This document shows positions 11,320-23,220 of a stretch of DNA of 64,000 nt, one piece after another (the stretch's first letter is position 1; every line of letters starts with the position of its first letter). Made by a program: the position numbers and the translations under genes. The DNA comes from an uncultured Flavobacteriales bacterium (GTDB lineage: Bacteria; Bacteroidota; Bacteroidia; CAIKAF01): contig CAILUT010000047.1 of NCBI GenBank assembly GCA_903837495.1, positions 62,001 through 126,000 of the forward strand. Reading direction: 5' to 3'. The notes beneath the pieces are model-generated. The model saw only the letters and a program-made list of their open reading frames with translations, searched no databases and was not told the DNA's origin.

Positions 11320-11952
11320 TTACAATACAATGTTTAAGATGCCGAAAAATAGGACTTGAATCCAAAACAACCATGCGGCGGTTTGATTGTATTGCCCTTT
11401 TGTTAGGTAATCCCATATTGCCATGCAGGGGATGCTGAGCAACCACCACGTTAGGTAATTGGTCCAGGGGATGCTGTTTTCTGCCCAATTCCAATAGCCC
11501 AAATGAGTGGCTACGGGTTCTAACAGCGCATCAAATGCGGTCATAATGCTAGCTCCGGCAATCCAGCTTCTCCAGCCGTTTAAAAACCCTATCCATTGGT
11601 AAATGGAATAGCTTAAAATGGCCCAATTTAGTCCAATCAGCAGGGGGATTTTCATGGGGCCCCAGCCTAGAATGCTTCCGTATGAATATTGGCCAAAAAG
11701 CCAGCCGGTATGTACGCCTATGCATTCTGCGGTCCAGCCCAAAATGGAAACCAGAGCGAACCCTTTCAGAAAGGGCGTCAAGTTTGATTCTTTTAGCGAC
11801 AAAAAAACCATCAAGGCCGAAAACAGCAAATTTAGGGGGGTGATTTCATTAAAAAGGGGCCGGGTTGTTGGAAGGATTAACCCCAAAAGGCCTACGCAAA
11901 AAACAGCAACCGTCCAGAAAAGAGGTTTAAACAGAAACAGGGTCGTTTTCAT
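11320..11952 (-). CDS. cruF: carotenoid 1,2-hydratase, CruF family
   Basis: A 210-residue integral membrane protein of the CruF/DUF422 family, which adds water to the psi-end of carotenoids such as gamma-carotene derivatives. Conserved stretches are GWTAECIGVHTG, GWGPMKIPLLIGLNW and FDALLEPVATHLGYW, with six to seven hydrophobic segments. The ATG at 11952 overlaps the crtD stop as ATGA. CruF followed by a CrtD-type 3,4-desaturase fits the route to monocyclic hydroxylated carotenoids such as saproxanthin or flexixanthin in Bacteroidota. The actual pigment also depends on crtY/crtZ/crtW genes that are not in the window. Confidence 0.88.
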   Translation of the reverse strand: MKTTLFLFKPLFWTVAVFCVGLLGLILPTTRPLFNEITPLNLLFSALMVFLSLKESNLTPFLKGFALVSILGWTAECIGVHTGWLFGQYSYGSILGWGPMKIPLLIGLNWAILSYSIYQWIGFLNGWRSWIAGASIMTAFDALLEPVATHLGYWNWAENSIPWTNYLTWWLLSIPCMAIWDYLTKGQYNQTAAWLFWIQVLFFGILNIVL

Positions 11953-13433
11953 GATGCGGAAGGAATTTGACTGCACGCAATTTTGGCCGAAAGCAAGCAA
12001 AGGGGGATCCCGCCGCCGGGATGTACGCTGCCGCCGGTAAAATATAGGCCATTGATGGATGCGGATTCATTGGCATGCCTATTAAAAGCCGACCAAGTTG
12101 AATTGGAAGAGGGGCCGTAAAGGGCTCCATCGGGCGATCCGGTTCGGCGGGCTATGTCGGCGGGTTGCAATATCCATTCGGCCTGCACATGTTCAAGAAC
12201 GTCTTTCCCTAAAATTCGACTCAATTTTTGACGTATGCGCTCCCGGGCTTGGTCAATTTGTTCTTGCGTCAAGGTGCCAATTCCGGGAGCATTAACCATG
12301 GTAAACCAGTTTTCGCTTTGTTGGGGCGCATCACCGGGTATGCGTTTTGAGGAAATGAACAGATAAATGGTTGGGTCGGGCGTAATGCCGTTTCCAGGAA
12401 TACTTAGAGCCTTAAATTCAGCTTGGTAATCGTCAGCAAAAAAGATGTTGTGTACATCTAGCTCTGGGAATTGAGCTGACATGCCCCAATTAAATACCAA
12501 GGCCGAGGTAGATCGCTCGGCGGCTTTTATCCGTTCGGGCAGTTCAAGGGCTGGATTCAATAAAGGATAAAACCGCTGTACGTCGATGGCAGAAACAACG
12601 ATTCCTGCCCTTTCAGTTCCTCCACTCCATTCTGCGGCATTCGCTTTGCCCTGGTTGTGGTGGATAGCGGTTGCAGATCGGTTCAGTTCTATTTTTACTC
12701 CGAGTCGAATGGCCGATTGTTCCAATGCTTTGGTTATGGCTATCATGCCCTCTTTGGGAAGCCACGCGCCTTTAAAATACTCCAACGAAGGAATGGCTTG
12801 TAGGGTAGCCGGAGCTTTGTAGGGGTTGCTTCCGTTGTAAGTAGCATAGCGATCAAAAAGTTGTACGAGCTTGGGGTTTTTTAGTCTGCTTCGGTGTACA
12901 GCGTGTAGGGTTTTAAGCACATCGAGGCGGTGAATTTTTAGCATACCCTTCAAAAAATCTGTGTTTAGATAGGTTGAAAGGCGGTGCATAGATCGGTATA
13001 AAAAAACGGGGGCCGAGATGCCATAGATTTCGTTCGAGCGGCTTAGTTGTTGACGCACCGCATTTTTATGTACCTGAAAGGTTTTTGCGGCTTGCTCTGC
13101 GAATGATTCTGGGTTTGCAGGGGCATCAAAGCGGGTTCCATCGTTCCAAAAATACCGGCAAACCGGGTCAAGGCGAATCAACTCAGGCATTAAATCGCTA
13201 TGGCCGGCCAATTCAAGGAGTTCTTCCAGCAATTCTGGCAGGGTGAATAGGCTGGGGCCGGCATCAAATCGGTATCCTTGTTCCCAGTGTTCGGAGAGTT
13301 TTCCCCCAACAAAGGAATTTTGTTCCCAAATCTGAACAGAATAGCCTTTTTTTGCCAGTCTGATGCCCATAGCCAGTCCACTGACCCCCGCTCCAACAAC
13401 GATGGCCGAATTTTTATTTATGTCTAAACTCAT
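11949..13433 (-). CDS. crtD: carotenoid desaturase, CrtD/CrtI family
   Basis: A 494-residue FAD-dependent carotenoid desaturase. It has the N-terminal dinucleotide-binding motif VVGAGVSGLAMG, the CrtI-family signature VGGKLSEHWEQGYRFDAGPSL-type segment, and a C-terminal FAD contact LYFTGGSVHPGGGIPL. Family membership is clear. The specific assignment as a 1-hydroxycarotenoid 3,4-desaturase (CrtD) rather than phytoene desaturase (CrtI) rests on the overlapping cruF gene, whose product would supply the hydroxylated substrate. Confidence 0.87.
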   Translation of the reverse strand: MSLDINKNSAIVVGAGVSGLAMGIRLAKKGYSVQIWEQNSFVGGKLSEHWEQGYRFDAGPSLFTLPELLEELLELAGHSDLMPELIRLDPVCRYFWNDGTRFDAPANPESFAEQAAKTFQVHKNAVRQQLSRSNEIYGISAPVFLYRSMHRLSTYLNTDFLKGMLKIHRLDVLKTLHAVHRSRLKNPKLVQLFDRYATYNGSNPYKAPATLQAIPSLEYFKGAWLPKEGMIAITKALEQSAIRLGVKIELNRSATAIHHNQGKANAAEWSGGTERAGIVVSAIDVQRFYPLLNPALELPERIKAAERSTSALVFNWGMSAQFPELDVHNIFFADDYQAEFKALSIPGNGITPDPTIYLFISSKRIPGDAPQQSENWFTMVNAPGIGTLTQEQIDQARERIRQKLSRILGKDVLEHVQAEWILQPADIARRTGSPDGALYGPSSNSTWSAFNRHANESASINGLYFTGGSVHPGGGIPLCLLSAKIACSQIPSAS

Positions 13434-18916: not shown

Positions 18917-19837
18917 TTATTGGGCCAAAGGGGCGGGGAATACAGTGGGCGAGAGTGGAATCCGAAGCATAGGGCTTACCCTAGATTTGCCTCGGTAATT
19001 CAGGTTAACCCAAATCAACAATTCGGGTATTATTCTGTCGCCTTTTACTACGTCCGGTCGTTCGGCTTCGTTTTTTTTGACCCAGCGGCCGGCGGGGCTA
19101 GCCCCCAGTAGTTTATCCAAGGGCATTTCCAACACAATGGTTTCTTTTTTGGGTTGCAGCTCCTGAACGCTTAAATAGTTGGTTTGAAAGGTCGAGTCGG
19201 CCCAAAAGACGTGGATTCGATTTTTCCCCCGGCCCAGCGCCTCTACCTGAAAGCGTTCCCGTACGTTGGGTTCCCAAATGCGAATCGGTTCGTCGGTCTT
19301 GTTTTTAACCTTAACCCGAATGATCTGCGATTCCACGTCCCATTCAATGCCCATATTCACTTCTTTGTAGTTGGAAAAACGAAAGCGCCCTTCTTGCAAG
19401 GAAACGGTTTGATTGAGGCCTAAGGCCCACTTAAAACGTTTTTCGGCGAAACCAAAAACATGCAGATTCCCAGGATTTAACTTGGGCAACAGCCGGTCTT
19501 TTTTTCCGTGTCCGGCTCTTCGCTCTAAGCGATTTAACCTACCCGACCAAATGCTGCCATAGGGGACTTTTACCCAAGCACTGTCTTTGAACAATGAATC
19601 AAGCGAGACCAAAGAAGGGGAGCCCTTTACCAGCCTAGCAAAGCGGCGATTTCCAGTTTGCTGCGCTATCAGCACCCATGAATTTGCCTGTACAGCAGAA
19701 TCGGCTGTCAGCACCGCGGTGTTTTCGTCGCCCAAATAATACTGAACCGTAGGCCTGCTCATTCGTGGGTTCATAACGGTGCCGCAGGCAAACAGCATCA
19801 CAATCCCAAAAAATCCAAATAAGCGGTATGGAAACAT
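18917..19837 (-). CDS. lipoprotein of unknown function
   Basis: 306 residues from the ATG at 19837. The N-terminus MFPYRLFGFFGIVMLFACG is a lipoprotein signal with lipobox LFAC, so the mature protein should be anchored by cysteine 18. The remainder is rich in charged and aromatic residues with an Ig-like beta pattern (around RVKVKNKTDEPIRIWEPN). I recognise no family. A TATATTTG box (19842-19849, minus strand) lies four bases before the ATG. The gene is divergent from the DUF7064-like gene with only 35 bases between the start codons. Confidence 0.72.
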   Translation of the reverse strand: MFPYRLFGFFGIVMLFACGTVMNPRMSRPTVQYYLGDENTAVLTADSAVQANSWVLIAQQTGNRRFARLVKGSPSLVSLDSLFKDSAWVKVPYGSIWSGRLNRLERRAGHGKKDRLLPKLNPGNLHVFGFAEKRFKWALGLNQTVSLQEGRFRFSNYKEVNMGIEWDVESQIIRVKVKNKTDEPIRIWEPNVRERFQVEALGRGKNRIHVFWADSTFQTNYLSVQELQPKKETIVLEMPLDKLLGASPAGRWVKKNEAERPDVVKGDRIIPELLIWVNLNYRGKSRVSPMLRIPLSPTVFPAPLAQ

Positions 19838-19872: not shown

Positions 19873-20829
19873 ATGTTAAAACGATGGATTGCCAGCAATT
19901 TGATGTTGGGGCGCGAACATGGGCAGGCATTTCCCCAGGGGGAGTTGCCCCAAGTTCCTATTCAGGACTCTGGAACCGATAGCTTTTACTTTTATTTGAG
20001 AAATTCGAGCGGGACTGCTTTGGTTAGCCGACTGGCCCTCAGAAAAAATGGATTTTGTGAATATTGGTTTGGTTTATACATGCCCGATTTAACTCCCTTG
20101 GTCATCGAAGGAACCGCCGCCCTTTTGCCCGGTATTTATTTGGGCGTCGAGGGGCTTTCTTTTGTTCCACAACCATCGGGTTCTTGGCAAATTAACGTGG
20201 ATTTTCCGGCACAGAAACTGCATGCTTCTCTGCTTTTTAGCCCAATAACCCCCATTTTTGACTTTGCTAGCCTCAGAGATAAAAATCAAATTGCCAAAGC
20301 CTTGGCTTCTATGTCCTGGAATTCACATTCCTTTAAGGCATTGAAATCCATGAAGACAGAGCACATCGAACAGGCAGGAAGGTGGAAAGGCGAATTGGCA
20401 TGGGCTGGCATTCAATATGCATTAGAAGGCGTCGGTGCCCGCGACCACAGTCGAGGCGAACGCAACTGGCATCAATGGGATTCGCATTCTTGGTTCACCG
20501 GGTTTAATGACCGGGGCCAAGGGTTTAATTTGTCCCTGATTCATTTCAAGGGGCTACCCACCCTGCGTGCTGGCTATATTTCTCGGCCAAACCAAGAGGC
20601 AGTTTGCTTGGTAAATGGCCCAGATTCGCCAATCGCATCGACTTCAGGAAGTTTTGATTTGAAAGGCTTGCACGATGCACATGCAGACCGCATCGATTTT
20701 AAAACCCTGGGTTTGTTTCCTTTTACCATGGATTCGGTATATAGAATTGAAGAAGGCTATGGTTGGTTCGATTGGAAAGGGGATCGCTATTTCGGAATTT
20801 TGGAACGGGGTTTTAAATTAAACAAGTAA
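19873..20829 (+). CDS. DUF7064-like / AttH-like lipocalin-type protein
   Basis: 318 residues from the ATG at 19873. The pattern HIEQAGRWKGELAW (about 164-177) followed by RDHSRGERNW (190-199) is characteristic of DUF7064/AttH/CrtC-like double-lipocalin proteins, in which the typical text is EQxGRxxG...RDHSxGxRxW. No signal peptide or membrane helix. The next gene, a PEP-dikinase-like phosphotransferase, starts three bases after its stop, so they are almost surely cotranslated. The biochemical role is unknown. I infer a substrate-binding or modifying partner of the phosphotransferase. Confidence 0.72.
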   Translation: MLKRWIASNLMLGREHGQAFPQGELPQVPIQDSGTDSFYFYLRNSSGTALVSRLALRKNGFCEYWFGLYMPDLTPLVIEGTAALLPGIYLGVEGLSFVPQPSGSWQINVDFPAQKLHASLLFSPITPIFDFASLRDKNQIAKALASMSWNSHSFKALKSMKTEHIEQAGRWKGELAWAGIQYALEGVGARDHSRGERNWHQWDSHSWFTGFNDRGQGFNLSLIHFKGLPTLRAGYISRPNQEAVCLVNGPDSPIASTSGSFDLKGLHDAHADRIDFKTLGLFPFTMDSVYRIEEGYGWFDWKGDRYFGILERGFKLNK

Positions 20830-20832
20830 GGC

Positions 20833-23220
20833 GTGTTTTTTAATAGCAATAGGGCTCAGCCATTGGCTGGCGGCAAGTTTAATGGCTTGGTGAAACTGAA
20901 AGAAGCCGGATTTAGGGTGCCTCCTTTTTTTGGGTGGAAGCTGGAAGAGGAAACCGATGTGCAGGTGATGGACTGGCTTGCCGGAATGCCAACTGCACCC
21001 CTTGCTGTTCGCTCCAGCGGCCTTGCCGAAGATGGAGCTGTACATTCTTTTGCCGGGCAATACCATTCCATCTTGCGCGTACTGCCCAAGCCAGAAGCGG
21101 TTCGGCAGGCCGCCATCCAAATCACTGCCCAGGCCAACCACAGCAGAGTGGAATTGTATGCCCAAAAGGGCGGAATAAAAATGGAAGATGAGGGGGTTTT
21201 ACCCCTTGTTATTCAAACCATGGTTGAACCCATTTGGAGCGGAGTTTTGTTTACGGTAGATCCAGTTTCAAAGTTACAGGACCGCATGCTGCTTTCTTGC
21301 GTAGCTGGAGATGCCGAGGCCTTGGTTGGTGGAGAAGTGAACGGATATTCTGTACACCTACCTTGTTGGGGCGAAAAACAGGGAGTGCCCCCCGATGGCC
21401 ATGGACTTCCCGATGCCTTTCTTCCTTTTATTGAAGAACTTTGGAAGGGGGCAAAACAGGCAGAACAACTTTTAGGAATGCCGGCCGATTTGGAATGGGC
21501 CATTGATGCCCAGGGAACCCTTTTTTGGCTTCAAATGAGGCCAATTACCACCCTAGATGTGGTCAATCCCCATGAATTGGACGCTCAATTAACCGATGGA
21601 GAAGCCCTCAATTCCCTTTTTACCCTTGGAAACATTGGGGAAATGATGCCCGGAGCTGTTACGCCGCTCACCGCCGAGATTTTTGGGGCTAGCATTGATG
21701 CCGGACTCATCGATTTCGCATCGAGATCGGGAGTGCCTAAGCCCAATCCGCAGGCAGAAAGAAGGTATGTTCAAACCTATTATTACCGCCTGTTTTTTAA
21801 TTTAACCAACCTGTACGACTTTTGCCGATTTACAGCGTTAAATCAACGCGACAACATTGAATTGTCTATTGTGGGGCGCTCGCTGGGATTGGAGCCAATT
21901 CCTCTGCAGGTAAATAAATTTAAAGCTGTTTTGAACTTTGTCGGTCAGCTTCGCTATCTGATTTCAGCCAAGTCCCGACTAAAACAACTGGAAACCATGT
22001 GCGCCCAACCCGCCCCCAACTGGTCCATGGAAGTACCCATTTTAGTGGAACAGCTCGAAGAGGCCAGGCGTGTCATGGATTTAGGCTTTTGCCATCATTT
22101 CGCCACATCAAGCAGTTCAGGCTCAAATTACACCGCTCTGGTTCGTACCATTATGGCCAAACTAAAGCTAGATCGGCAATCGGCACAAGGATTGGCCAAC
22201 ACTTGGTTGACCGGAATTGGTTCCGTAGAAAGTGCAGACCCCCTTTCAAAACTGCAAAACCTAGCGGAACAGATAAAAAAACAGGTGCCTTCAAACAGCT
22301 TCGATGGGTCGGCCGATGAACTTCTGCATTGGCTGCAGGAAAAAGCACCGGCCGATCTTCAACAGGCCTGGCATGAATTTATTCTGAGGCATGGGCACCG
22401 CGGCATTCGAGAAGCTGAACTTTCTACCCCTTCTTGGGCCCAGGATTTGGAATCGCTGGCTCATTTGCTGCTGCAACTGATGGCCATACCCGACCGGGGA
22501 GACTCAAATAAAACCTTTTCAACCAAGGAATCTGATTCCGGGTGGGCCGCACATCAGCCAAAGGGGCTTGTGCTGAATTATTTTTTAAGGCAGGCTAGGC
22601 AAAGTGTAATCAATAGGGAGAAGTCTAAGGCAATGAGCATTAAACTTTTAAGTCGATTGAAAACCGGATTTAGGCAATGGGGAACATGGGCGAGCAACCA
22701 AGGAATTATTGATAAGGAAGAAGACGTTTTCTTTTTGCTGACCAAAGAAATACAGGCCGCCTCAAAATCTGGGCAATCGCTGAAGAAGCAGGTTGAGCGT
22801 CGAAAGGAAGCTTACGAGCTCTGCAGCAAGCTTAATTTTTCCGATGTACTGATCGGAAAACCATTCCCTCTTTTTGCGTCAAAGTCCATTTCGACCAACG
22901 AAAACGAATGGCTGGGGGTGCCTGTTAGTCCGGGTATCGCAACAGGCCGGGTTAGGCTGGTTAAAACTCCCGCCGATGCGGCTAAACTTGAAGCCGAAGA
23001 CATATTGGTGTCTGGCTTTACCGACATTGGCTGGACTCCATATTATGGAGTAGTGAAGGGAATGGTAACCGAAATGGGTAGCCCCCTTTCCCATGGAGCG
23101 GTGGTGGCAAGGGAATATGGCCTTCCAGCTGTGGTGGGAATCTCTGGAATTTGTTCTGCACTGAAAGATGGAGACCGCATTGAAATAAATGGCATGGAAG
23201 GTATTGTTCGCCGCCTGTAG
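20833..23220 (+). CDS. PEP-synthase/rifampin-phosphotransferase-like dikinase
   Basis: 795 residues, GTG start. N-terminal ATP-grasp pyruvate phosphate dikinase domain (1-240) with [24 protein letters not shown]-like IQTMVEP and a final WLQMRPIT. A long helical middle (~240-690), then the mobile phosphohistidine domain (~700-795) with [19 protein letters not shown], whose histidine 754 should carry the phosphate. There is no C-terminal PEP/pyruvate TIM barrel, so it is not a PEP synthase. The layout is that of rifampin phosphotransferase and the related YvkC family, which transfer the ATP beta-phosphate to a small molecule. The substrate here is unknown. Confidence 0.85.

Follow-up and report, generated by a model that had tools for sequence, protein, structure and literature searches.

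Two coupled genes of a freshwater Bacteroidota bacterium, termed P0001 and P0002, are proposed with moderate confidence to work together in dehydrating a hydrophobic alcohol, probably a tertiary or isoprenoid one, at the expense of ATP. P0002 is a phosphotransferase of the PEP-dikinase type and the proposed alcohol kinase, whereas P0001, a double-lipocalin protein of the DUF7065/DUF7064 type and kin to 25-phosphosteroid lyase (25-PSL), is the proposed phosphate lyase. From the evidence set out below, we infer which reactions the two proteins catalyse, in what order these take place and to which class the substrate belongs.

The gene pair and its distribution

In the window, which is the whole 64,000-nucleotide stretch of DNA that was analysed, P0001 occupies positions 19873..20829 of the plus strand and encodes 318 amino acids from an ATG at 19873, a start supported because this methionine is invariant in six homologues. 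Its TAA codon (20827-20829) is followed by three bases and then by P0002 (20833..23220, plus strand; 795 amino acids from a GTG at 20833), and both genes are in the same reading frame. The original prediction of two open reading frames three bases apart was correct: both are real, at these coordinates. Divergent from the pair is a gene for a predicted lipoprotein (18917..19837, minus strand) that has no Pfam match; each of the six genomes of the genus retains it next to the pair, and its membership in the unit is putative. In contrast to the plasmid examples described below, the pair is not set within a catabolic operon, which counts against dehydration.

Both genes are present in 6/6 genomes of the genus, where they are adjacent or overlapping (gap of -11 to +3 bp). 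They stay together even in the two genomes whose downstream neighbors differ, a uvrA-like gene being absent there, and for these reasons the pairing is not due to chance. The original prediction had been made to depend on the pair recurring in other genomes; the neighborhood check bore this out for the genus, and pairs of this type were also found on plasmids. Searches across wider taxonomic groups gave no P0001 in other genera of the family, no relative of it in a profile search of 389 other genomes of the class and no PF23213 match in 394 other genomes of the phylum. Likewise, a scan of genome contigs returned the pair from the same genus only, and it was not found in viral contigs. Because relatives are absent from the other class and phylum genomes searched, the pair is considered rare in Bacteroidota and was probably imported. 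Elsewhere in the family, a different genus (genome G001) has a homologue of P0002 (L028 7577-9952, minus strand) with neither a detectable PPDK_N domain nor a lyase-like neighbor.

P0001 and the 25-phosphosteroid lyase family

The sole Pfam match of P0001 is DUF7065 (PF23213), which covers the C-terminal part of the protein at E 4e-4 and scores 20.7 bits against a gathering cut-off of 27; there is no Pfam match to DUF7064 (PF23212) itself, and NCBIfam yields a weak match to the Rv3169 family. P0001 thus has profile homology to these families but lies under their cut-offs. On plasmid proteins, the DUF7065 and DUF7064 models follow each other within one chain. In an AF2 model made from six sequences (pLDDT 75, pTM 0.73), P0001 is predicted to consist of two beta-rich halves with helices between them. 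The best five Foldseek matches of this model in the PDB were all entries of 25-PSL (E 8e-12 to 2e-11, prob 1.00), an enzyme of the Sterolibacterium-type pathway that was solved in 2026 (PDB 9fzn, 9g2i and 9g4c) and that removes phosphate, by elimination, from a tertiary alcohol in its phosphorylated form. These were followed by AttH, the pericyclases Fsa2 and Phm7, and kievitone hydratase. The double-lipocalin fold that had been predicted for P0001 is supported by the model and its Foldseek matches; the protein had been described as DUF7064-like, and its Pfam match is to DUF7065. Structure alone does not separate the lyase from AttH-type relatives (E 8e-12 versus 6e-11), and since hydratases and pericyclases share the fold, the reaction of P0001 could differ from that of a lyase.

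At the level of sequence, the similarity of P0001 is specific to DUF7065 and 25-PSL, and the other Pfam families of the fold are not matched. An HMM built from 21 plasmid DUF7064/65 proteins detected the six proteins of the window genus at 1e-12 to 1e-17, and a profile comparison with the plasmid proteins aligned residues 93-319. A profile of 26 plasmid proteins that included no window sequences, when compared with the PDB, matched 25-PSL at 5e-10, with AttH second at 0.02. The six proteins of the window genus alone gave no match in a PDB sequence search, and the window profile aligned with one stretch of 25-PSL at residues 161-198 (37% identity, E 6.6e-5). P0001 is homologous to the 25-phosphosteroid lyase family.

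The aligned stretch is the conserved core of P0001 (KTEHIEQAG..GARDHSRGERN; 20353..20466, plus strand), in which both H/F..Q.G...G.L and RD[HR]SxGxR are found. In addition to the fold, P0001 and its distant relative 25-PSL have in common the core QxGxWxGxL...GxRDxSxGxR, including its aspartate, which aligns with D191 of P0001. Among the 25-PSL sequences in the PDB, this residue is Asp in 9fzn and 9g2i but N in 9g4c, whose structure contains phosphate and the alkene product, a difference suggesting that the motif Asp is catalytic. Counting against a lyase function, P0001 and 25-PSL are just 14-15% identical across the fold (about 14% overall), and the Trp of RDHSWG that is present in most relatives is replaced by Arg or Thr in the proteins of the window genus.

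P0002, a PEP-dikinase-type phosphotransferase

Pfam assigns only two domains to P0002: PPDK_N, at E 1.4e-29, and, at 8e-19, the PEP-utilising mobile domain. The PEP/pyruvate-binding barrel (PF02896) was not found in P0002 by a search that did detect it in a control, a true PPDK in genome G014. These results confirm the earlier description of the protein as a PEP-dikinase-type enzyme that resembles rifampin phosphotransferase and has no PEP barrel. The N-terminal ATP domain, a central region and the C-terminal swivelling His domain follow one another in a single chain. H754 (codon 23092..23094, plus strand) lies within the canonical S-H-G-A motif of the mobile domain and, like K15, R60, E221, Q234 and R236, is invariant across six homologues; the residues of ATP and His chemistry are intact. 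As had been anticipated, H754 is the expected phosphocarrier, judging from its motif and conservation.

The solved structures nearest to P0002 are the listerial entries 5fbs and 5hv1, annotated as PEP synthase, which we take to be the rifampin phosphotransferase Rph. While the domain order of P0002 is that of Rph, its N-terminal domain is about 57 residues shorter, a partner gene lies beside it and its score against the rifampin phosphotransferase model NF041857 is 211 bits, far under the cut-off of 999. Partial NCBIfam matches to PigC (187 bits; cut-off 1300) and RedH (173 bits; cut-off 1350) are also below threshold, and P0002 falls far under the cut-offs of every PEP synthase model too. The notion that lack of a PEP barrel equates to antibiotic resistance was ruled out by these family scores.

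Among full-length relatives of P0002 on plasmids, the best (L044 523-8507) is located on a Roseinatronobacter plasmid between genes for a UbiA prenyltransferase and a DUF3419 protein. An unusual protein of 1286 amino acids on Phaeobacter pP97_a (L046 4312-8172) has rhodanese and 60KD_IMP-like segments fused to a PPDK_N/His-domain enzyme. No DUF7065 neighbor of these Roseobacter PEP enzymes (Roseinatronobacter and Phaeobacter) was detected among the proteins scanned with Pfam. A fused-chain model, in which P0001 and P0002 were read through the TAA with 11 unpaired sequences, gave no usable interface (pLDDT 53, pTM 0.37).

Plasmid relatives and their kinase partners

Plasmid relatives of P0001 were gathered by similarity to DUF7065 proteins, independent of their neighbors, and the surrounding regions were then read; the Rhodococcus ZPP pair was found from the kinase side. 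A phosphotransferase gene lies within 3.4 kb of 18/24 plasmid lyase-like genes, and for 12 of these the distance is no more than about 100 bp; both are raw counts, in which some of the genes are closely related to one another. The remaining six have no kinase nearby, which counts against dehydration. The neighboring phosphotransferases belong to three unrelated kinds, namely APH/EcKL, PEP-dikinase and the chloramphenicol-phosphotransferase (CPT) type. Partners of the PEP-dikinase type occur in Diaphorobacter, Mycobacterium avium pP7a, Methylibium PM1, Paraburkholderia and Rhodococcus ZPP. The CPT type is exemplified by a protein of M. branderi pJCM12687 (L054 7956-8669) that is annotated as an "AAA family ATPase" but has a PF07931 match (E 4e-19) identifying it as a chloramphenicol-phosphotransferase-like kinase; it is encoded beside a DUF7064/65 gene. 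The wider plasmid context is catabolic and includes P450s, alcohol and acyl-CoA dehydrogenases, enoyl-CoA hydratases and a microcompartment locus.

The kind of kinase varies among the lyase-like proteins. The lyase-like proteins of Rhodococcus ZPP, with a dikinase partner, and Diaphorobacter, with an EcKL/APH partner, are 64% identical. A tree built from 31 such proteins shows seven switches of partner kind, six of which are forced by well-supported branches. A constant protein found beside kinases of unrelated fold therefore probably acts on what is common to all of them, the phosphoester.

Some of the dikinases are split. On M. avium pP7a (L050/L066), each of three lyase-like genes lies by a gene for an enzyme of 503-573 amino acids that has a C-terminal His domain and lacks the ATP domain, PPDK_N being carried on a separate protein; the same split is seen in Diaphorobacter. 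This arrangement resembles the subunits of phenylphosphate synthase and suggests that a single ATP subunit may serve several acceptor subunits. Two further arrangements were observed: a DUF7064/65 gene together with a HAD-type hydrolase within a bacterial microcompartment locus (L055 and L058), and a DUF7064/65 gene together with a barrel-less dikinase of ~840 amino acids in which the His domain is central (L055 and L063).

The M. tuberculosis operon Rv3168-Rv3169 also fits the pattern of a kinase with a lyase-like protein. Both genes are controlled by one TetR regulator (PMC5340868), and Rv3168 has been treated in the literature as an aminoglycoside-phosphotransferase-like protein.

A proposed route of ATP-dependent dehydration

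In the proposed mechanism, the N-terminal domain of P0002 would bind ATP, and H754 would become autophosphorylated with release of AMP and phosphate. The phosphohistidine would then swing to a small-molecule alcohol in the central region of P0002 and phosphorylate it. P0001 would accept the resulting phosphoester and eliminate inorganic phosphate to give an alkene or a carbocation-derived product.

Two precedents underlie this assignment. During anaerobic sterol degradation, the ATP-dependent dehydration of a tertiary alcohol is divided between two enzymes, 25-hydroxysteroid kinase and a lyase (PMC8449060). Phenylphosphate synthase, a PEP-synthase-like enzyme, phosphorylates phenol via a His while converting ATP to AMP (PMC7500099). 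Taken together, the 25-PSL route and phenylphosphate synthase lead to the proposal that P0002 phosphorylates the alcohol via H754 and P0001 expels the phosphate. The same kinase and lyase-like logic may apply where APH/EcKL enzymes akin to the 25-hydroxysteroid kinase are encoded beside DUF7064/65 genes, as in Rv3168-Rv3169. However, the APH fold implies direct transfer, whereas P0002 is of the PEP-dikinase type with its expected phosphohistidine chemistry. Moreover, no lyase candidate was found near the kinase gene in S. denitrificans (PMC8449060), whereas the kinase and lyase-like genes are coupled in the window. By analogy, P0002 resembles phenylphosphate synthase of Thauera and Desulfatiglans in being PEP-synthase-like and in probably transferring phosphate to a small-molecule hydroxyl via His, with ATP converted to AMP and Pi. 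It differs in being one chain rather than separate ATP-binding and His subunits, and its partner is a lipocalin-fold putative lyase, whereas the product of phenylphosphate synthase passes to a carboxylase.

The use of a dikinase may have an energetic rationale. The transfer potential of a tertiary phosphoester is slightly greater than that of ATP, and the reaction of the APH-type kinase is freely reversible (PMC8449060); a dikinase, by converting ATP to AMP and Pi, would remove this limit and would make the first step irreversible. Kinase-lyase dehydration with an APH-type kinase is known; in the present pair, a dikinase would most likely take the place of that kinase.

Coupling of the genes in 6/6 genomes, the presence of this pair type on plasmids and the domains of P0002 all uphold the original prediction of one phosphorylation-linked unit. 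That prediction had also called the system unknown, which went too far in view of its resemblance to the kinase-lyase route of sterol degradation (PMC8449060).

Alternative functions and candidate substrates

P0001 had been predicted to present a hydrophobic substrate to P0002, such that the protein merely binds the substrate and hands it over, and the phosphoester is the final product. Although a lipocalin-type fold and the coupling of the genes are in keeping with such a role, it is unlikely. The closest solved relatives are enzymes, with 25-PSL first among them; the family conserves the polar motif RDxSxGxR and not a hydrophobic lining; and a dedicated presenter specific to one kinase is hard to square with partners of unrelated kinase fold. 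Kinship to 25-PSL by fold and by profiles makes it more likely that P0001 is a second enzyme, a phosphate lyase, than a carrier. Quite unlikely is a variant in which P0001 expels phosphate and the cation left behind closes a ring or takes up water, in the manner of the pericyclases and hydratases that share the fold; P0001 would then be a phosphate-triggered cyclase or hydratase in isoprenoid or secondary-metabolite synthesis. The Foldseek matches to Fsa2, Phm7, AttH and kievitone hydratase would fit this, as would the occurrence in the genus of phytoene synthase (6/6 genomes) and of a CruF-type carotenoid gene (5/6) that is also present within the window. However, the specificity of the sequence similarity described above argues against it, and in genomes G006 and G008 the carotenoid genes are located away from the pair, whether on a different contig or elsewhere.

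The remaining alternatives concern P0002. Inactivation of an antibiotic, with P0002 acting as Rph and P0001 as an accessory protein, would accord with the nearest solved structures and the shared domain order but is very improbable given the low NF041857 score, and plasmid Rph genes have no DUF7065 gene in the regions examined. The partial matches to PigC and RedH raise the prospect that P0002 joins two molecules after converting an acid or aldehyde into an activated phosphate; with scores so far below those cut-offs and no pyrrole pathway genes seen nearby, such a ligase is the most improbable of the functions considered.

If dehydration is the function, a tertiary isoprenoid alcohol might be supplied through the products of the CruF-type gene (11320-12000, minus strand) and of the desaturase-like gene of the amine oxidase family that overlaps it (11949-13433, minus strand), both about 6-8 kb from the pair. 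The 1-hydroxyl end group of a carotenoid, which resembles the C25 hydroxyl of sterols, can be put forward as the substrate only as a guess, and a distinctly improbable one. A hopanoid substrate was judged unlikely because squalene-hopene cyclase was not found in the genus.

Implications for the DUF7064/65 family

A broader hypothesis, which is held tentatively and is probably less secure than the function of the pair itself, is that DUF7064/DUF7065 proteins form an extensive family of phosphate lyases, for the most part unrecognised, which bacteria pair with any available alcohol kinase (APH/EcKL, chloramphenicol-phosphotransferase type or PEP-dikinase), so that ATP is spent on dehydrating unreactive alcohols. 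In its dikinase form, the system would use up both high-energy bonds of ATP and so make formation of the high-energy tertiary phosphoester irreversible, and the PEP-synthase-like proteins of animals may represent the system in a single chain; a literature search on these animal proteins or DUF7064 found nothing useful. If the hypothesis is true, DUF7064/65, which is annotated as being of unknown function, would gain a testable reaction, and a joint hypothesis would be available for Rv3168 and Rv3169, of which the first carries the annotation aminoglycoside-phosphotransferase-like and the second that of a protein without known function. Furthermore, what has been a sterol-specific curiosity would become a general bacterial route for removing unreactive alcohol groups.
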